NCBI GenBank assembly: GCA_014534155.1
Contig: JACVSB010000110.1
Coordinates: forward strand, 1-6,219
Source of the DNA: Thermoleophilia bacterium
GTDB taxonomy: Bacteria; Actinomycetota; Thermoleophilia; Gaiellales; Gaiellaceae
Reading direction: 5' to 3'
Length of the DNA: 6,219 nt
Part shown: positions 1-6,219 of the stretch, piece by piece
Layout: every line of letters begins with the position of its first letter
Numbering within the stretch: the stretch's first letter is position 1
The notes under the pieces: generated by a model
Seen by the model: the letters and a program-made list of their open reading frames with translations, nothing else
The model's database searches: none
What the model was told of the DNA's origin: nothing
Translations under genes and position numbers: made by a program

Positions 1-52
1 CGAGGTCGGTGAACGTGCCGCCCACGTCGATCCCGACGAACGCGCCTCTCAT
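1..52 (-). CDS. Hydantoinase/oxoprolinase-family protein, N-terminal fragment (cut by window edge)
   Basis: Only the first 17 codons are in the window; the ATG is at 52-50 on the minus strand and the gene continues leftwards. The visible peptide is MRGAFVGIDVGGTFTDL. The stretch GIDVGGTFTD is the N-terminal phosphate-binding signature of the ASKHA-fold HyuA/5-oxoprolinase A-subunit family (ATP-dependent N-methylhydantoinases, 5-oxoprolinases, acetone carboxylase beta-like proteins). The family assignment is fairly safe from this motif, but the substrate cannot be inferred from 17 residues. The gene is divergent from the HxlR-type regulator at 98-481, which makes it a candidate target of that regulator. 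There is no clear Shine-Dalgarno: a GGGG run lies about 12 bases upstream. A GACGAT hexamer ends 7 bases before the ATG, so the transcript may be leaderless. Confidence 0.75.
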   Translation of the reverse strand, partial: MRGAFVGIDVGGTFTDL

Positions 53-59
53 GGCGCGC

Positions 60-65
60 ATCGTC
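60..65 (-). promoter_or_regulatory. Possible -10 box of the hydantoinase-type gene
   Basis: On the minus strand GACGAT (65-60) ends 7 bases before the ATG at 52. A TTGTAC hexamer (89-84), resembling a -35 box, lies 18 bases further upstream. The spacing suits a sigma-70 promoter firing at the start codon, but GACGAT is a poor -10 match, so this is tentative. Confidence 0.3.
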
Positions 66-84
66 CCCGCCCGACGCCTCGTCG

Positions 85-90
85 TACAAT
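85..90 (+). promoter_or_regulatory. -10 box (TACAAT) of the HxlR-type regulator
   Basis: TACAAT at 85-90 is a near-consensus sigma-70 -10 hexamer in otherwise GC-rich DNA. It ends 7 bases before the ATG at 98, so transcription would begin at or next to that codon and give a leaderless mRNA. No recognisable -35 box is seen. The hexamer overlaps the -35-like TTGTAC of the divergent gene, so a repressor bound here could affect both directions. Confidence 0.55.
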
Positions 91-97
91 GGACGGT

Positions 98-481
98 ATG
101 CGCACGATGCGGGCGGTGCACGACGAGGAGTGTGCCGTCGCTTGTACTGCTGAGATCATCGGGTCGAAATGGACGGCAGTGCTCCTCCACGACCTCTCGG
201 AGGGGCCGCGGCGGTTCTCGGACCTGGAGCGGGCCCTACCCGGCATCAGTCCGCGCACGCTCTCCGAGCGGCTTCGCGCGCTCGAGGCCGAACGGATCCT
301 GGCGCGCGAAAGCTACCCCGAATCTCCGCCCCGCGTCGAGTACGCGCTCACGCCGAAGGGCCGTGCGCTGCTTCCGATCATCGACGCAATGCGCGATTTC
401 GGCCACGAATGGCTCGTGCCCGAGCACGACCATCGCCCGCTGGACGCACGGCACACGCGCAGCCTCTCGGCACGCCGGTAA
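98..481 (+). CDS. HxlR-family winged-helix transcriptional regulator
   Basis: This is a 127-residue protein, the normal size for the HxlR (DUF24) family of small dimeric regulators, many of which sense electrophiles or oxidants through an N-terminal cysteine. The winged helix covers about residues 20-90. Family hallmarks are IGSKWTAVLL (21-30), GPRRFSDLERALPGIS (36-51, leading into the recognition helix), LSERLRALEAERILAR (55-70) and PPRVEYALTPKG (78-89, the wing). Cysteines at 12 and 16 sit where family members such as HypR and YodB carry their redox Cys, so thiol sensing is plausible but inferred. The ATG at 98 was chosen because the TACAAT box at 85-90 would put the transcript start there. 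An in-frame ATG at 89 lies inside that box, and another is at 107. No Shine-Dalgarno is seen. HxlR proteins often repress a divergent neighbour, here the hydantoinase-type gene. Confidence 0.9.
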   Translation: MRTMRAVHDEECAVACTAEIIGSKWTAVLLHDLSEGPRRFSDLERALPGISPRTLSERLRALEAERILARESYPESPPRVEYALTPKGRALLPIIDAMRDFGHEWLVPEHDHRPLDARHTRSLSARR

Positions 482-495
482 GCGGGGCGCCCCGC
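482..495. terminator. GC-rich palindrome between convergent genes (possible bidirectional terminator)
   Basis: A perfect 14-base palindrome (GCGGGGCGCCCCGC) lies immediately after the HxlR stop codon and 17 bases before the stop of the convergent M20 peptidase gene. It could fold into a short hairpin on either transcript. There is no U-tract and the loop would be very tight, so intrinsic termination is only suggested by position. Confidence 0.3.
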
Positions 496-512
496 GCTCC
501 GGCGCGCGACGG

Positions 513-1841
513 CTAGCGGAGGTCCGTAAACGCGAGGAGCACCTCGCGCGCCGTCTCGACGCCGAGCGGGATGTAGCGTGCGAGCAGCCGTTCGTTCGGC
601 GAGTGCACATTCGCGCCGGGGATCGCGAAGCCGGTGAGGATCGTCGGGATTCCTTTCTCGGCGAGCGCGGGGACGATCGGAAGCGTCCCGCCCGTACGCA
701 GGAGCAGCGGACGGCGCCCGAGCACGCGCTCGAACGCGGCCGAGGCGAGCTGCACCGCCCGCGCCTCGGGAGGGACGAGCGCGCCCGGCGACGACGACCA
801 GCGCTCGATCTCGACCTCGGCGCCGGCGGGCGCCGCGTCGCGAACGAGCCGCTCGAACGCCGCCGCGACGAGACCTTCGTCCTGGCCTGCGGCGAGCCGG
901 ATCGACACGTTCGCCTCGGCCTCCACGGGCAGGACCGTCTTCTGCAGCGTCGGCTCGCCGCCCGCGATTCCGTTCACGTCCACCGCCGTGGCAGCGAACG
1001 TGCGGCGATAGAACTCCTCCCCGGCGGTCTCGTCCAGCGGGCGCCCCCCCGCCGCGGTCAGGACGTCGGAGCCGGGCGCGAGCTCGCGCCAGGAGGCGAG
1101 CTCGGCGTCGGTCGGCTCGATCGCCCCCGCCCGGAGCTCCTCGGGCACGCCGAGGGCCGGCGCGAGCGCCTGGGTGAGGGCGTGGATCGCGTTCAGCGCC
1201 GCACCGCCGAAGACGCCCGAATGCAGGTCGCACTCGCCCGTCCGCACGCGTACGTGCAGGTAGACGAGGCCGCGCGTGCCGAGGTCGAGCGCGGGAACAT
1301 CCTCCTGCGGCATGGCGGAGTCGAAGATGACGCACGCGTCCGCGCCTCGCGAGTCGCCGGCGAGGAAGTCGACGATCGAGTGCCCCCCGACCTCCTCCTC
1401 CCCGTCGAAGGCGAGACGCACGTTGACGGGAAGGGCACCCTCCTGGGCGAGCAGCGCGGCTGCCTTCAGGAGGAGGTACGCCTGCCCCTTGTCGTCGGCC
1501 GCTCCGCGCGCGTAGAGGTAACCGTCGCGGAGGACCGGCTCGAAGGGCGGCGACGACCAGAGCTCGAGCGGCGCCGGAGGTTGGACGTCGAAATGGCCAT
1601 AGAGGAGAACCGTGGGCGCGCCGTCGCCGTCTTGTGCGCCGGAAGCCGGTACCTCGCCGACGACCAGGGGCTGCGTCGGCGTCTCCACGAGCGCAGCCTC
1701 GCCGCCCGCCGCCCGGACGAAGGTAGACAGCCACTCGGCCGCGCGACGGACGTCTCCAGAGTGCGCAGGGTCGGCGCTGACGCTCGGGATGCGAAGCCAC
1801 TCCGACAGCTCCTCCAGCCAGTCGCGGGGCACGTCGGCCAC
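513..1841 (-). CDS. M20-family zinc metallopeptidase (dipeptidase / carnosinase-like)
   Basis: This 442-residue protein matches the M20 family (CNDP/DapE/ArgE type), cytosolic di-zinc enzymes that cleave dipeptides or N-acyl amino acids. The metal site is complete: H83 and D85 in YGHFDVQP, bridging D116 in ARGAADDKG, catalytic E149 and ligand E150 in DGEEEVGG, D174 in IFDSAMP, and H413 in GANVHSPNE. The inserted dimerisation (lid) domain, about 190-310, carries DLHSGVFGG with H207, the residue that in dimeric members reaches into the partner's active site. DLHSGVFGG and GTRGLVYLHV favour the dipeptidase/CNDP branch over DapE or ArgE, but the substrate is unknown. There is no signal peptide. 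The start is GTG at 1841, without a Shine-Dalgarno but with TACACT six bases upstream, implying a leaderless mRNA. It lies 34 bases downstream of the sigma-factor gene on the same strand, so readthrough from that gene is also possible. The four residues MADV at its start fit no specific motif. Confidence 0.93.
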   Translation of the reverse strand: MADVPRDWLEELSEWLRIPSVSADPAHSGDVRRAAEWLSTFVRAAGGEAALVETPTQPLVVGEVPASGAQDGDGAPTVLLYGHFDVQPPAPLELWSSPPFEPVLRDGYLYARGAADDKGQAYLLLKAAALLAQEGALPVNVRLAFDGEEEVGGHSIVDFLAGDSRGADACVIFDSAMPQEDVPALDLGTRGLVYLHVRVRTGECDLHSGVFGGAALNAIHALTQALAPALGVPEELRAGAIEPTDAELASWRELAPGSDVLTAAGGRPLDETAGEEFYRRTFAATAVDVNGIAGGEPTLQKTVLPVEAEANVSIRLAAGQDEGLVAAAFERLVRDAAPAGAEVEIERWSSSPGALVPPEARAVQLASAAFERVLGRRPLLLRTGGTLPIVPALAEKGIPTILTGFAIPGANVHSPNERLLARYIPLGVETAREVLLAFTDLR

Positions 1842-1847
1842 GCGGGG

Positions 1848-1853
1848 AGTGTA
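1848..1853 (-). promoter_or_regulatory. -10 box (TACACT) of the M20 peptidase gene
   Basis: TACACT (1853-1848, minus strand) ends six bases before the GTG start at 1841. It sits in the 34-base gap after the sigma-factor gene. The placement predicts a transcript starting at the GTG. No -35 match is seen about 17 bases upstream. Confidence 0.5.
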
Positions 1854-1875
1854 GGGAGGGCCGGGGCTCGGCGCG

Positions 1876-2958
1876 CTACGCGGCGACTTCGCGGAGCTTC
1901 TGCGACTCGGCCATCGCCTGCAGCTTCCGAAGCGTCTGGTTTTCGATCTGGCGCACGCGCTCGCGCGTCACGTTGAAGGTTCGGCCAACCTCGTCGAGCG
2001 TGCACGGACGCTCGCCGTTCAAGCCGTAGCGCAGCTCGAGGATCCGCCGCTCGCGGTAGGAGAGCGTCCCGAGCACGCGCTGGAGCGTCTCCTCCCTCAG
2101 TGCCGTGTCCGTACTCTCGTCCGGGGAGGGCGCGCTCTCGTCGGCGAGGAAGTGGCCGAACTCCGAATCTTCCTCGTCACCCACCGGCTTCTCCAGCGAG
2201 ACGGGGGCCTGCGCGCTGCGCCGCAGGTGCTCGACCTCGTCGACGTCGAGCTCGAGATCGCGGGCGATCTCGGCGCTCGTCGGCTCGCGGCCGAGCTCGG
2301 AGACGAGCTTGCGCTCGGAGCGGCCGATCTTGTTCAGCTTCTCGACCACGTGGACCGGCATCCGGATCGTGCGCGCCTTGTCGGCGAGCGCACGCGCGAC
2401 GGCTTGCCGGATCCACCACGTCGCGTACGTCGAGAACTTGAAGCCCTTGCGGTAGTCGAACTTCTCGGCCGCCCGGACGAGCCCGATCGTGCCCTCCTGG
2501 ATCAGGTCGAGGAACGGGAGCCCCTGGTTGCGGTAGTTCTTGGCGATCGAGACGACGAGGCGGAGGTTCGACTCGACCATCGTCCGCTTAGCGCCGTCGT
2601 CTCCGCGCTCGATCCGCTTCGCGAGGTCGACCTCCTGCGCCGCGGTCAGGAGAGGAACGCGCCCGATGTCCTTCAGGAAGAGCTGCAACGAGTCGGTCGA
2701 CGTCTCGCGCTGCTCGAGGTCGAGCTCCGGGACCACGCGGGCCGGCTCCTCGACGAGGTCGATCTGGAGCTCTTCCAGGGCGTGGTAGAGCTCGTCCGCC
2801 TGCGAGGCGTCCGCACCGAGCTCCTCGAGGACGGCTGCCACCTCCTCGTGCGTGAGCGAGCCCACCTCCTGGCCGTGCACGAGCAACGCCTTCGTCTCCT
2901 CGTGCTCGAGCACTACCGGCCCAGCCCCACCTGTTGCCTCCTCCCGTGCCGCTCCCAC
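1876..2958 (-). CDS. rpoD: RNA polymerase sigma-70 factor, primary (RpoD/SigA) type
   Basis: This 360-residue protein directs RNA polymerase to promoters by recognising -10 and -35 elements. A short region 1.1-like helical segment occupies about 33-70 ([14 protein letters not shown]...). It is followed by region 1.2 at 87-120 ([18 protein letters not shown]), region 2 at 124-194 with [22 protein letters not shown] and the -10-reading [13 protein letters not shown], and region 3 at about 199-275. Region 4 spans 287-350, with the -35-reading helix-turn-helix [20 protein letters not shown] region 1.1-like segment plus full regions 1.2-4 favours a primary (group 1) factor, although a close group 2 paralogue cannot be excluded. 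The GTG at 2958 was chosen because AAGGGAGGT ends five bases upstream. The frame stays open to an ATG at 3063, but those 35 extra residues look unlike sigma sequence and would cross the inverted repeats. The M20 peptidase gene follows after 34 bases. Confidence 0.93.
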
Positions 2959-2963
2959 GGAAG

Positions 2964-2972
2964 ACCTCCCTT
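2964..2972 (-). promoter_or_regulatory. Strong Shine-Dalgarno that fixes the sigma-factor start
   Basis: On the minus strand AAGGGAGGT (2972-2964) lies five bases before GTG at 2958, near-ideal pairing with the 3' end of 16S rRNA. It decides the start codon over the upstream in-frame ATG at 3063. It is the only strong Shine-Dalgarno before any gene start in this window. A TAGGGT hexamer just upstream (2981-2976) could be a -10 box but would leave a leader of only about 11 bases. Confidence 0.75.
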
Positions 2973-3036
2973 CTGACCCTAGCCGCTCGTGCGCCACCGG
3001 CAGTGTGCCAAGTCCGGATCGCTGGTTGCGCGACTT

Positions 3037-3053
3037 TGCCACAAGCGGTGGCA
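3037..3053. repeat. Inverted repeat in the sigma-factor leader (possible operator)
   Basis: TGCCAC (3037-3042) and GTGGCA (3048-3053) form a perfect 6-bp inverted repeat with a 5-base spacer. It lies about 80 bases upstream of the sigma-factor GTG and just before the terminator-like hairpin. It could be a dimer-binding operator or an RNA stem in the leader; nothing in the window identifies a cognate regulator. Confidence 0.35.
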
Positions 3054-3061
3054 CGTCCGCC

Positions 3062-3083
3062 ATGGGCCGAACGGCCCATTTTT
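3062..3083 (+). terminator. Intrinsic-terminator-shaped hairpin plus T-run, plus-strand orientation
   Basis: ATGGGCC (3062-3068) and GGCCCAT (3073-3079) pair around a GAAC loop. A run of five T (3079-3083) follows on the plus strand. The flanking genes are both on the minus strand and no plus-strand gene precedes it. Read on the minus strand, the hairpin lies 15 bases past the stop codon of the TPR gene, with five A before it and no U-tract after it. It may therefore end TPR transcripts as a hairpin-only terminator while also stopping antisense transcripts. Confidence 0.55.
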
Positions 3084-3098
3084 CGCGTGTACCCGGTC

Positions 3099-4064
3099 CT
3101 ATTCGACGCCTCCGAGACGGTCGAGGATCCTCGCGGCCTCCCGTCCGTAGAAGCCCTTCGGGTCGTCCCCGCGCGCCCGCCGCAGCTGCACACGGGCCTC
3201 CTCGAGGTTGGGGAGGTAGAGGAGCGCGAGGCCGAGGTGGTAGCGGACGATCGGCGCCCGTGGGTGGCGGCCCGCAAGCCGGCCGAGCCGGGAGAAGGTC
3301 GCCGCCGGCGCATCCTTTTGGAAGCGCGCAATCGCTGCGCCGACTTGCGCCCGCAGATCGGCGGGCGCGAGCTGCGCCGCACGGTCGAACGCGCGGCGCG
3401 CCGAGAGGGGGCGCCCGAGGCGCAGGTACGCGATGCCGAGGCGAAGGAGCCGCGCGGGGTCGCGTCCGCGCGCGGCGACGCCTGCCTGCCCTCCGGCGGC
3501 CTCGGAGAGGAGCGATGCCGGCACCGAGAGCGGCGCCACGAAGAGCGGGCGACCCGGAGGCGAGCGCGGGTTCAGGAGGTCGTCAGCGCGGATCGCCGCC
3601 GGCGAGTCGGGGTCGACGCGCTCCGCTCTCCGCCATTCCCGCCGGGCAAGCTCGAGCTCGCCCGCCGAGAGGAGCGCCAGCCCCAGGTTGAGGCGCGCGA
3701 CGCCGCTCGCCGGGTGCCTCTCGGCGATCGCCCGGAGACGCCGGACGAGCGCCGGCCCGCCCCCGGCGAACGCGAGGCCGACCTCTGCCGCGACGGAGTC
3801 CGGCTTCCGTGCGAGCACCGAAGCGAAGCGGCGGCGGGCCTCCGCAACCCGGCCCGTCTCGTAGAGGCGCTCGCCCTCGCGCAGGCCTCCCTCGTCGGGG
3901 GCGAGCGCGGCCAGCTCGAGCGCGGGCCGCTCGCGCTCGCCCGCCGGCGCGTGCGCTTCCCCTCCTGCCTCCCGGCCCTGGACGAGCGCGCCGCCCACGC
4001 TCGCGGCCGCGGCCGCGACCGCGACCGCGGCGACCACGACGACTGTCCGCGTGCGCGGAGACAT
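3099..4064 (-). CDS. Membrane-anchored tetratricopeptide-repeat (TPR) protein
   Basis: This 321-residue protein has a basic N-terminus (MSPRTRT) and a hydrophobic Val/Ala stretch at about 7-28, read as a signal anchor or uncleaved signal peptide. An Ala/Glu-rich linker then leads to TPR-type helical pairs. The clearest repeats are about 59-92 ([24 protein letters not shown], ending ARKPDS), 120-153 ([25 protein letters not shown], ending VDPDS), 203-236 ([24 protein letters not shown], ending LAPAD) and 272-303 ([25 protein letters not shown], ending DDPKG). Such proteins act as protein-protein scaffolds, here probably outside or at the membrane; the partner is unknown and no enzymatic motif is seen. 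The ATG at 4064 is preceded by TACCCT ending six bases upstream, with no Shine-Dalgarno. The frame runs open far upstream, antisense to the next gene, but that extension is a GC artefact. The gene is divergent from the MoeB-type gene across 54 bases. Confidence 0.85.
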
Positions 4065-4070
4065 GCCGCG

Positions 4071-4076
4071 AGGGTA
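4071..4076 (-). promoter_or_regulatory. -10 box (TACCCT) of the TPR-protein gene
   Basis: TACCCT (4076-4071, minus strand) fits the TANNNT pattern and ends six bases before the ATG at 4064, predicting a leaderless mRNA. It shares the 54-base divergent region with the TATACT box of the opposite gene; no -35 match is evident. Confidence 0.45.
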
Positions 4077-4102
4077 GCCTCGGGGGCGCCCACGACGGCC
4101 GC

Positions 4103-4108
4103 TATACT
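4103..4108 (+). promoter_or_regulatory. -10 box (TATACT) of the MoeZ-like / CysO-CysM operon
   Basis: TATACT at 4103-4108 is one mismatch from the TATAAT consensus and ends ten bases before the ATG at 4119. Transcription would begin within a few bases of that ATG, giving a leader of about 0-4 bases. No Shine-Dalgarno fits in that space: GAAG at 4113-4116 is too close to the ATG. No -35 box is recognised. Confidence 0.6.
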
Positions 4109-4118
4109 CTTTGAAGCA

Positions 4119-5294
4119 ATGGCCTCCTACCGCGAGCTCCTTGCCCAGGTCAAGCGCGAGATCGACGAGGTCGACGCGCAGGGCGCGCGCGAGCGGCTCG
4201 AGCGTGACGGGGACGTTGCGCTCGTCGACGTCCGCGAGCGCCCGGAGTGGGACGAGGGCCACGTGCCGGGCGCGCTGCACATCCCCCGCGGAAACCTCGA
4301 GTCGCGGGTCGAGGGCTTCCTGCCCGACCGCTCGCAGGCGATCATCCTCTACTGCGCGACGGGCAACCGCTCGGCCCTGGCCGCGCGGACGCTGGAGGAG
4401 CTGGGCTACGAGAACGTCGCCTCCCTGGCCGGCGGCTTCACCGAGTGGAAGCGAAACGGGTTCCCGTTCGAGGTCCCGCAGACGCTCGAAGCCGCGCAGC
4501 GACGTCGGTACAGCCGCCACATCCTCATCCCGGAGGTCGGTGAGGAGGGGCAGGCGAAGCTGCTCCAGTCCCGGATCCTCCTCATCGGCGCCGGCGGACT
4601 CGGCTCCCCCGCGGCTCTCTACCTCGCTGCCGCCGGGATCGGCACGCTGGGCATCGTGGACGACGACGCGGTCGACGAGACGAACCTGCAGCGCCAGATC
4701 GTCCATTCGACCGAGCGCCTGGGCGAACCGAAGGCGGAGTCGGCGAAGCGGACGATCGAGGCGCTCAATCCGGATGTCAACGTTCAGGTCTTTCGCGAGC
4801 GCCTCACCTCGGACAACGTGGATCGCATCCTCGGCGAGGGATGGGACGCGATCGTCGACGGCGCGGACAACTTCCCCACTCGCTACCTCCTGAACGACGC
4901 GTCGGTGTGGCACGGGATCCCCGTGGTGCACGGGTCGATCTTTCGCTTCGAAGGCCAGACGACGGTCTTCAAGCCCGGCGAGGGACCGTGCTACCGGTGC
5001 CTCTTCCCGGAGCCGCCGCCTCCGGAGCTCGCGCCGAGCTGCGCCGAGGGCGGCGTTCTCGGCGTCCTGCCCGGGATCGTCGGCTCCCTGCAGGCGAACG
5101 AGGCGCTGAAGCTCGTGCTCGGGATCGGCGAGCCGCTCGTCGGCCGGCTCCTCCTCTTCGACGCGCTCGAGACGATGTTCACCGAGGTCTCGCTCCGGCG
5201 CGACCCGGGCTGCCCCGTCTGCGGCGAGGACCCGTCCATCACCGAGTACGTCGACTACGTCGAGTTCTGCACCCGCCCGCGCGTCGCCTCGTGA
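4119..5294 (+). CDS. Rhodanese-MoeB/ThiF fusion: adenylyltransferase/sulfurtransferase (MoeZ-like, permuted domains)
   Basis: This is a 391-residue E1-like enzyme that should adenylate the C-terminal Gly-Gly of a ubiquitin-fold sulfur carrier and convert it to a thiocarboxylate. Residues about 15-118 are a rhodanese domain (LVDVREPEW-like LVDVRERPEWDEGHVPGA; active loop CATGNRS with C79; AGGFTEW). Residues about 125-385 are the MoeB/ThiF domain: YSRHILIPEVG, nucleotide loop GAGGLGSP (157-164), DDDAVDETNLQRQ (181-193, arginine finger R192) and DGADNFPTRY (247-256). The zinc cysteines are C291/C294 (CYRC) and C365/C368 (CPVC). C308 in PSCAEGGVLG is at the catalytic or sulfur-relay Cys position of MoeZ and Uba4. 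MoeZ of M. tuberculosis has rhodanese C-terminally; here it is N-terminal and the protein ends soon after SITEYVDYVEFC. The ATG at 4119 follows the TATACT box. The stop overlaps the next gene's GTG, implying translational coupling. The natural partner is the adjacent CysO domain; a MoaD elsewhere could also be served. Confidence 0.93.
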   Translation: MASYRELLAQVKREIDEVDAQGARERLERDGDVALVDVRERPEWDEGHVPGALHIPRGNLESRVEGFLPDRSQAIILYCATGNRSALAARTLEELGYENVASLAGGFTEWKRNGFPFEVPQTLEAAQRRRYSRHILIPEVGEEGQAKLLQSRILLIGAGGLGSPAALYLAAAGIGTLGIVDDDAVDETNLQRQIVHSTERLGEPKAESAKRTIEALNPDVNVQVFRERLTSDNVDRILGEGWDAIVDGADNFPTRYLLNDASVWHGIPVVHGSIFRFEGQTTVFKPGEGPCYRCLFPEPPPPELAPSCAEGGVLGVLPGIVGSLQANEALKLVLGIGEPLVGRLLLFDALETMFTEVSLRRDPGCPVCGEDPSITEYVDYVEFCTRPRVAS

Positions 5295-5560
5295 TCCGAG
5301 TCCGGATCCCTCCCACGCTGCGCACGGAGGTCGGCGGAGCACGGGAGGTGGAGGCGAGCGGCTCGGATCTGCGCGAGCTCATGCAGGATCTCGTCGCCCG
5401 CTTCCCGGCCCTCGGAACCCACGTGTTCGAGGAGGACGACGGGCTGGCGCCGTTCCTGAACGTCTACGTGAACAACGAGGACGCGCGCACGCTCCAGGGC
5501 CTCGACACACCGCTCGCCGACGGGTCCACGGTCATCCTGCTCCCCGCCATGGCAGGGGGC
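5291..5560 (+). other. cysO: Domain: CysO/MoaD-like ubiquitin-fold sulfur carrier (residues 1-90)
   Basis: This 90-codon segment corresponds in length and sequence to a whole stand-alone CysO (about 93 residues in M. tuberculosis). Shared elements are an IP-T-LR N-terminal strand, a central F-NVYVN-ED strand and a C-terminal ADG-TVILLPA-AGG tail. The terminal Gly-Gly is where a thiocarboxylate forms in this family. A normal gene would stop right after GGC at 5558-5560; here the next codons are GAG CAG ACG. Confidence 0.88.
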
Positions 5561-6219
5561 GAGCAGACGCTGACGCGAAGCGTCCTCGCCGCCGTCGGGC
5601 GGACGCCGATCGTCGAGCTCCCGCGCCTCGCTCCGCACGAAGGCGTCCGCCTCTATGCGAAGCTCGAGGGCCAGAACCCGACGGGCTCACTGAAGGACCG
5701 CGTCGCGAAGGCGATGGTGGAGGCTGCGGAGGCCTCGGGCGAGCTCGCGCCCGGGCGCGAACTTCTCGAGCCGACGAGCGGAAACACCGGTATCTCGCTC
5801 GCCCTCGTCGCGAAGCTCACGGGCCACCGGCTCACATGCGTCGTGCCGGAGAACGCGACCCCGGAACGTATTCGGCTCCTGCGCCTGTACGGCGCGGACG
5901 TCCTCTTCTCGCCGGCCGCCGAGGGCTCCAACGGCGCCGTGCGCCTCGCGCTTCGGATGGCCCAGCGGGACGAGCGGTACTTCATGCTCAACCAGTACGC
6001 GAACGAGGCGAACCCTCGAGCACACTTCGAGGGGACCGGCGCCGAGATCGTCGAGGCGCTCTCCCAGGTCGACGTCCTCGTCGCGGGCCTGGGCACCGGC
6101 GGGACGCTGATGGGAGCGGGCGAGCGCGTACGCGACGCGTTCCCCGACGTGGTGGTCGCGGCCGCCGAGCCGCTCCAGGGCGACCTCGTCTACGGGCTGC
6201 GTTCCCTCGCCGACGGATA
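5291..6219 (+). CDS. CysO-CysM fusion: sulfur-carrier domain joined in frame to O-phosphoserine-type cysteine synthase (3' end cut)
   Basis: One uninterrupted reading frame runs from GTG 5291 to the window end (309 codons visible). Residues 1-90 resemble CysO/MoaD/ThiS carriers: RIPPTLRTEVGG near the start, FLNVYVNNEDAR (55-66) and a tail VILLPAMAGG ending in Gly89-Gly90. Residue 91 onward is a fold-type II PLP enzyme of the CysK/CysM family: GRTPIVEL (103-110), NPTGSLKDR with PLP lysine K135, EPTSGNTGIS (160-169), AEGSNGAV and phosphate-binding GTGGTLMG (268-275). R304 in VYGLR aligns, from memory of the M. tuberculosis CysM sequence, with R220, the residue that selects O-phosphoserine. The expected chemistry is carrier thiocarboxylate + O-phosphoserine giving carrier-cysteine, then release of cysteine by a JAMM protease. 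In M. tuberculosis carrier and synthase are separate proteins. Here no stop follows Gly-Gly, so cleavage after G90 or an internal start would be needed. The GTG overlaps the preceding TGA (GTGA) and has no Shine-Dalgarno. Confidence 0.88.
   Translation, partial: MIRVRIPPTLRTEVGGAREVEASGSDLRELMQDLVARFPALGTHVFEEDDGLAPFLNVYVNNEDARTLQGLDTPLADGSTVILLPAMAGGEQTLTRSVLAAVGRTPIVELPRLAPHEGVRLYAKLEGQNPTGSLKDRVAKAMVEAAEASGELAPGRELLEPTSGNTGISLALVAKLTGHRLTCVVPENATPERIRLLRLYGADVLFSPAAEGSNGAVRLALRMAQRDERYFMLNQYANEANPRAHFEGTGAEIVEALSQVDVLVAGLGTGGTLMGAGERVRDAFPDVVVAAAEPLQGDLVYGLRSLADG
5561..6219 (+). other. cysM: Domain: CysM-type PLP-dependent cysteine synthase (residues 91-309, incomplete)
   Basis: This segment follows Gly-Gly with about twelve linker-like residues (EQTLTRSVLAAV) before the GRTPIVEL motif, the same distance a free CysM has from its own start to that motif. 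There is therefore essentially no added linker. It holds the PLP lysine (K135), the substrate-binding TSGNTG loop and the PLP-phosphate loop. About 219 residues are visible, against roughly 320 for complete CysM, so the C-terminal third lies beyond the window. The presence of R304 and AEGSNGAV favours CysM (O-phosphoserine) over CysK (O-acetylserine). Confidence 0.88.

Follow-up and report, generated by a model that had tools for sequence, protein, structure and literature searches.

A CysO-CysM Fusion Gene in Thermoleophilia with an Internal Gly-Gly Predicted To Be a Protease Cleavage Site

The sulfur carriers MoaD and ThiS are adenylated and thiocarboxylated at the carboxylate of their terminal glycine, and eukaryotic ubiquitin-ribosomal protein precursors, in which a ubiquitin-like (Ubl) domain stands ahead of a functional partner, are cut after Gly-Gly to give products in a 1:1 ratio. 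CysO is likewise a sulfur carrier modified in these two ways at its terminal Gly carboxylate, and Mec is reported to hydrolyze the CysO-Cys adduct (PMC3227635). MoaX, the MoaD-MoaE protein of Mycobacterium tuberculosis, works only once it has been cut at Gly82 (PMC4326299). DRJAMM of Deinococcus radiodurans cuts the MoaD-MoaE protein DR2607 (PMC8832034), and SAMP1-MoaE, which depends on HvJAMM1 for its function, is cut by it after the terminal Gly (PMC4443979). The capped carriers PtmS2 and PtmS3 of a Streptomyces end in the caps MV and C, respectively, and the gene of the JAMM protein PtmS1 is clustered with that of PtmS2; capped carriers typically require a protease, QbsD being another such protease (PMC6006322). 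Iyer et al. (2006; PMC1779556) reported operons of ThiS/MoaD, E1-like, JAB protease, and cysteine synthase genes, as well as fusions of ThiS/MoaD to ThiG, MoaE, sulfite reductase, and aldehyde ferredoxin oxidoreductase, and the excerpt of that paper does not name cysteine synthase among the fusions given. No paper on a CysO-CysM fusion was found in a literature search that left out bioRxiv preprints and most subscription papers. Here we describe such a fusion in a stretch of 6,219 nucleotides (nt) from a Thermoleophilia bacterium (Gaiellaceae; GenBank assembly GCA_014534155.1, contig JACVSB010000110.1, positions 1 to 6,219 of the forward strand), the whole of which is referred to below as the window. 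The fusion is genuine, and its product is probably a precursor that a JAMM metalloprotease would cut into carrier and synthase.

The fused cysO-cysM gene lies at 5291..6219 on the forward strand. From its GTG start at 5291, the reading frame runs for 309 codons without a stop and is still open at the window end, which confirms the claim of a first-pass annotation of this DNA that no stop separates the Gly-Gly of the carrier from the synthase. Pfam placed ThiS at residues 4-90 and PALP at residues 100-304. The CysO-type sulfur-carrier domain (5291..5560; beta-grasp, ThiS family, PF02597 at 2.5e-12) ends in ILLPAMAGG, and its best Protein Data Bank (PDB) sequence matches were 4n6e_B and M. tuberculosis CysO (3dwg_C, 1.4e-15). 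Its last two residues, Gly89-Gly90 (5555..5560, codons GGG-GGC), are directly followed by a GAG codon, giving a predicted cleavage site at G90/E91, and the linker EQTLTR (5561..5578) then leads to the profile match of a CysM-type, pyridoxal phosphate (PLP)-dependent cysteine synthase (5579..6219; PF00291) that is cut off by the window end. For the CysM half, the best PDB matches, obtained with the full-length relative P0003 as the query, were the M. tuberculosis CysM entries 3dwi, 3dwg, and 3dki, and the NCBIfam cysM and cysKM models matched with scores below their cut-offs. Full-length relatives of the fusion are about 399-416 amino acids (aa) long. Two residues of the CysM half did not vary across the 120 rows of an alignment of fused proteins (the window and 119 database proteins): K135 (codon 5693-5695), which we take to be the PLP lysine, and R304 (codon 6200-6202), which aligns with Arg220 of M. 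tuberculosis CysM, presumably the phosphate-binding Arg.

Judged by these features, the gene appears to carry both the marks of CysO (a beta-grasp ThiS domain with a domain-terminal Gly-Gly) and those of CysM (a PALP fold nearest to CysM, with the PLP lysine and the phosphate-binding Arg in place), and its product has the layout of MoaX-like precursors, a Ubl joined to the enzyme that it would serve, with Gly-Gly internal. The free C-terminal Gly carboxylate of a carrier is absent from the encoded protein, in which Gly-Gly is internal, and would be present only after a cut. An AlphaFold model of P0003 was of moderate confidence (mean predicted local distance difference test score [pLDDT] of 80.4, predicted template modeling score of 0.66). 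Its pLDDT fell below 50 at residues 87-92, which would fit an exposed link; we gave this little weight because residues 237-240 and 303-310 were also below 50. A fold search with P0003 gave matches to its CysM portion and was of little further use for CysO.

The fusion was found in many related sequences. A database protein search scored 8,000 candidates, and both domains were present in all of the best 120, which include the protein of the window itself. The other 119 of these matches were 399-404 aa long, and the few organism names given among them were Gaiellaceae, Gaiellales, or Thermoleophilia. G89 and G90 were invariant in all 120 rows and also in a more diverse set of 44. CysO-CysM sequences were already in databases under composite names, which include "cysteine synthase/molybdopterin converting factor small subunit," and the cutting of MoaD-MoaE fusions by JAMM proteins was already known. 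In a class sample of 399 genomes, where a fused row was a single open frame over nearly the whole query, at least 24 genomes had the fusion (25 single-frame rows among the matches listed, minus the false case G292). Profiles for CysO, CysM, rhodanese-ThiF, and JAMM were used to annotate 114 loci, 12 of which lacked a CysO match and were left out of the counts that follow. The remaining 102 comprised 76 split loci and 26 scored as fused; one of the latter (L152, from G292) has its LPAMAGG in another frame through a cysO frameshift and was dropped from the fused set, leaving 25 true fusions with the window included. The linker from Gly-Gly to the CysM match measured 6-23 residues across these 25 loci. 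Since the listed database proteins carry both domains and 24 related loci keep the frame, the fusion is no assembly error, and the first-pass annotation's concern that this genome might be a lone exception among homologues with two separate genes is removed.

The neighboring genes are those expected for a CysO pathway. Directly upstream, at 4119..5294 on the forward strand, lies a gene for a MoeZ-like activating enzyme of 391 aa with an N-terminal rhodanese domain (PF00581, residues 24-112) and a ThiF/E1-like adenylating domain (PF00899, residues 131-367; NCBIfam NF006444 above cut-off), which would be expected to adenylate and sulfurate the CysO C terminus. Its TGA stop overlaps the GTG start of cysO-cysM (GTGA), and this overlap suggests that translation of the two genes is coupled. 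A rhodanese-ThiF match ended within 300 nt upstream of cysO in all 25 true fused loci and was found upstream in 71 of the 76 split loci. In 21 of the 25 true fusions, a JAMM match started no more than 250 nt past cysM; at the other four (the window, L004, L007, and L011), at most 77 nt of contig were left after the cysM match, making the count 21 of 21 for true fusions whose contig continues. For the split loci, the JAMM was within 250 nt in 66, was further off in 7, and was absent downstream within the fetched stretch in 3. Of these, L040 carries a JAMM upstream of cysO, and for L170 and L194 a JAMM was found elsewhere in the genome. The motif HxHx10D was present in all 22 JAMMs beside fused genes (one being that of L152) and in 70 of the 73 beside split genes, the three misses consisting of two proteins cut by the fetched stretch and one with longer spacing. 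Genome searches with PF14464 covered two sets and found a JAMM in 37 of 40 genomes of one and in all 73 of the other; 93 of the 110 genomes with a JAMM had a single match, and in the three with none (G004, G007, and G011) the contig stops at cysM. At L005, the adjacent JAMM is a Prok-JAB protein and matched a single NCBIfam model, that of haloarchaeal desampylase, below its cut-off. In a phylum sample of 396 genomes, a further CysO-CysM fusion (L310, genome G421), whose Gly-Gly is separated from the CysM match by approximately four residues, had its JAMM upstream instead of downstream. Two other arrangements were seen. The rhodanese-ThiF match of L165 was split across two frames. Six split loci (L016, L019, L026, L031, L035, and L067) had about 750-840 nt between cysO and cysM, and this gap in L016 encodes a methyltransferase-domain protein (PF08241) whose start overlaps the cysO stop.

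We propose that the product of the window gene is a pro-CysO in which the entire cysteine synthase CysM serves as the C-terminal extension. Cleavage after Gly90 by a Mec-like JAMM metalloprotease, encoded by a neighboring gene, would yield CysM and a CysO with a free Gly-Gly carboxylate in a 1:1 ratio. The upstream rhodanese-ThiF protein would then adenylate and thiocarboxylate the released CysO, CysM would transfer the sulfur from CysO to O-phosphoserine, and the same JAMM would remove cysteine from the CysO-Cys adduct. Because CysO modification acts on the terminal Gly carboxylate, the fused CysO should act only after a cut at G90/E91. In addition, a protease of this kind would already handle whatever follows Gly-Gly, leaving the CysO stop codon free to drift, and such drift would explain repeated fusion. 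We give this model as a whole a high probability, with the neighboring JAMM as the most likely protease.

Split CysO proteins provided a comparison for this model. The sequence LPA(M/V/L)AGG was present in 101 of the 102 CysO, the exception being L152, and the tails that follow it vary freely. Like the window protein, 60 of the 76 split CysO lack a free C-terminal Gly-Gly as encoded; they carry 1-23 residues past it (one residue in 26, two or more in 34). As controls, 20 other ThiS/MoaD-like carriers were picked by hand from each genome set after CysO and MoaD-MoaE had been set aside, the picks leaving out the five weakest matches in the fused-genome set and some strong ones too in the split-genome set. 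Compared to the split CysO, control carriers mostly stopped exactly at Gly-Gly: 19 of 20 did so in fused genomes and 16 of 18 in split genomes, where L282 and L286 were unreadable, for a total of 35 of 38 (Fisher p = 2e-13, not corrected for kinship). With three loci read later (L277 and L279, which end exactly at Gly-Gly, and L255, which has a one-residue tail and is itself CysO-like), the counts were 37 of 41 with exact ends and 4 of 41 with a tail. L152 and L037, whose CysO end is the same as that of L036, were excluded from the tail statistics and from the tree described below. Among the matches listed for the phylum sample, 31 rows had one CysO-plus-CysM frame with a single stop, and 18 of these had tails of 1-9 residues and 13 had none. 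Since tails are graded in both the split CysO and these rows, the fusion resembles a general pro-CysO in its most extended form, and most of the unfused CysO here would also need trimming, which goes beyond what the first-pass annotation had claimed. Five split CysO (L020, L029, L138, L174, and L175) end exactly in Gly-Gly-Cys, the same end as that of the CysO-Cys adduct. Three related loci (L173, L176, and L178) have 23-residue CysO tails with GGRSRAAEPPSA, repeating a second Gly-Gly, and the CysO tails of L157 and L331 end in Gly-Gly again.

The position directly after Gly-Gly (P1') was also biased. Proline was found there in none of 103 tails and linkers, compared to 67 of 467 later positions. 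After near-copies were collapsed, the proline counts were 0 of 64 distinct sequences at P1' and 45 of 327 at later positions (p = 4e-4). Residues that are small or polar (S, A, G, C, T, N, or Q) occupied P1' in 51 of 64 versus 157 of 327 later positions (p = 2e-6), with the residue groups chosen after the data had been seen and the linkers taken up to the CysM profile match. For these two reasons we treat the bias as a lead to a possible trace of a protease and not as proof. Taken together, the JAMM adjacency (21 of 21), the tails on 60 of 76 unfused CysO, and the lack of P1' proline support the proposal of the first-pass annotation that the protein is a precursor, with cleavage following G90 and a Mec-type JAMM as the possible protease.

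Besides the two limits on the P1' data, several points weigh against this model. Cleavage, the protease responsible, the substrates, and the order of the steps are all inferred. The window ends inside cysM, and the expected downstream JAMM gene is not visible there. Tails do not follow carrier type perfectly: 16 of the 76 split CysO end exactly at Gly-Gly, and 3 of the 38 control carriers have tails (15 residues after ISGG in L248 of G096, 2 in L285, and 1 in L290). The deficit of proline at P1' may come partly from mutation out of stop codons; alanine was counted 25 times and proline 0 times at P1', though each needs two changes from a stop. Gly-Gly was reported, in passing, to be dispensable for HvJAMM1 cutting of linear fusions (PMC8832034); in cells, deletion of Gly-Gly abolished detectable cutting (PMC4443979).

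Finally, a JAMM is not the sole candidate, because no protease had been assigned to the MoaX of M. tuberculosis in PMC4326299. The fusion might instead be cut after Gly-Gly by another protease, with the neighboring JAMM only recycling CysO-Cys. We consider this improbable, given that the JAMM is adjacent in every testable true fusion and is the only PF14464 match in most genomes that have one and that the JAMMs of Haloferax and Deinococcus cut linear Ubl-MoaE fusions.

On a tree of 100 rows built from CysM and rhodanese-ThiF by a quick method with no bootstrap, nine rows being less than half filled, the fused label changed seven times, six of them forced by supported branches, compared to a mean of 22.4 for shuffled labels. 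The tree gives changes between fused and unfused and does not separate gains from losses. The window falls within seven fused rows (support of 99), joined by L005 (support of 93), and a second fused set comprises eight rows (support of 100). The fused state thus appears to have changed several times, a second point beyond the first-pass annotation. For 21 of the 24 fused genomes, the best ThiS-family match (L201-L221) continues for 136-142 residues past an internal VSGG; L201, L205, and L210 matched ThiS and MoaE in Pfam, and the rest were recognized by eye. A MoaD-MoaE-like pattern was also found in 19 of 30 loci of the split-genome search (within L251-L280). Many Thermoleophilia genomes thus have, in addition to CysO-CysM, a second Ubl-enzyme fusion in which MoaD and MoaE form a single protein, and its presence in most of the fused genomes is a third point beyond the first-pass annotation. 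In 8 of the 24 fused genomes (G011, G030, G033, G314, G283, G246, G187, and G289), the genome search gave only two ThiS-family matches, the fused CysO and the MoaD-MoaE type, so that these genomes would have no free carrier tail unless a protease acts or incomplete genomes hide one.

That the fused state is kept in two clades of eight rows, and that some fused genomes have other free carriers, could also be explained if the protein worked uncut, with CysO as a tethered docking or regulatory domain and CysM taking free sulfide or another carrier. This is very unlikely. Between the window and six fused relatives, nonsynonymous divergence (dN) over the nine codons of ILLPAMAGG was 0 in five comparisons and 0.085 in that with L116 (Met to Leu); synonymous change was present, one synonymous estimate being saturated. 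Such conservation, together with the invariant internal Gly-Gly, is hard to explain without a free C terminus, and the linker beside Gly-Gly varies among fused loci. It is extremely unlikely that the CysO half is a dead remnant on CysM: no such case was seen among the true fusions, L152 with its damaged CysO being a frameshift case, and the CysO end is conserved, the ratio of nonsynonymous to synonymous divergence in the CysO core is 0.31-0.66 in the same six comparisons, and the operon partners are present. L152 shows that an indel can create a false fusion, but the chance that the G run (5555-5559) of the window holds an artefact of sequencing or assembly is negligible, and this reading was rejected on the strength of the 119 other fused database proteins and the 24 other fused loci. 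The earlier reasoning on this run held as well, one G fewer giving AMAGASRR-stop and one G more keeping Gly-Gly with the CysM frame lost and no stop within the printed stretch. Frameshifting at the run was likewise rejected, as five Gs were found at this position in only one of six aligned relatives (L003).

The other genes of the window, identified with Pfam, encode an HxlR-type regulator (89-481, forward strand), an M20 peptidase (513-1841, reverse strand), and a sigma-70 family factor (1876-3063, reverse strand).

The fusion adds the final enzyme of cysteine synthesis to the natural fusion partners of ubiquitin-like carriers. It also suggests a rule, which other lineages would allow to be checked from their sequences, that a carrier handled by a JAMM need no longer end at Gly-Gly, and such a rule would show how Ubl precursor genes can arise repeatedly. 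Were proteolysis limiting, the cut would form a posttranslational switch on cysteine synthesis. More tentatively, and with rather less than even confidence, we raise the possibility that the JAMM is an obligate maturase of cysteine synthesis: most CysO would be made as precursors, some with Gly-Gly-Cys tails like CysO-Cys; the stop would drift and CysM polyproteins would arise repeatedly; the uncut fusion would be a store switched on by proteolysis; and one JAMM would also mature MoaD-MoaE, linking cysteine and molybdenum cofactor synthesis.

Among known systems, ubiquitin-ribosomal protein precursors involve other proteases and functions and offer an analogy only. The closer likeness is to MoaX, DR2607, and SAMP1-MoaE, in which a Ubl carrier with an internal Gly-Gly also stands ahead of the enzyme that it serves. 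Unlike in MoaX and DR2607, the partner here is CysM and not MoaE, the pathway is another, and the cleavage is a predicted one; SAMP1-MoaE of Haloferax was expressed artificially, the genes being separate in that species (PMC4443979). Compared to CysO, CysM, Mec, and MoeZ of M. tuberculosis, both halves match, a rhodanese-ThiF gene lies upstream, and a JAMM gene is present in relatives. The rhodanese domain of the 4119-5294 product precedes ThiF, the reverse of MoeZ, in which it is C-terminal (PMC3227635). CysO and CysM are separate chains in M. tuberculosis (3dwg) and share one frame here, and the position of the JAMM gene downstream of cysM in relatives is unlike the M. tuberculosis arrangement. 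With the capped carriers PtmS2 and PtmS3 (QbsE being, we presume, the carrier of QbsD), the locus shares extra residues past Gly-Gly and, in its relatives, a clustered JAMM gene, the caps there being one or two residues long and the extensions here reaching up to 23 residues or a whole enzyme.

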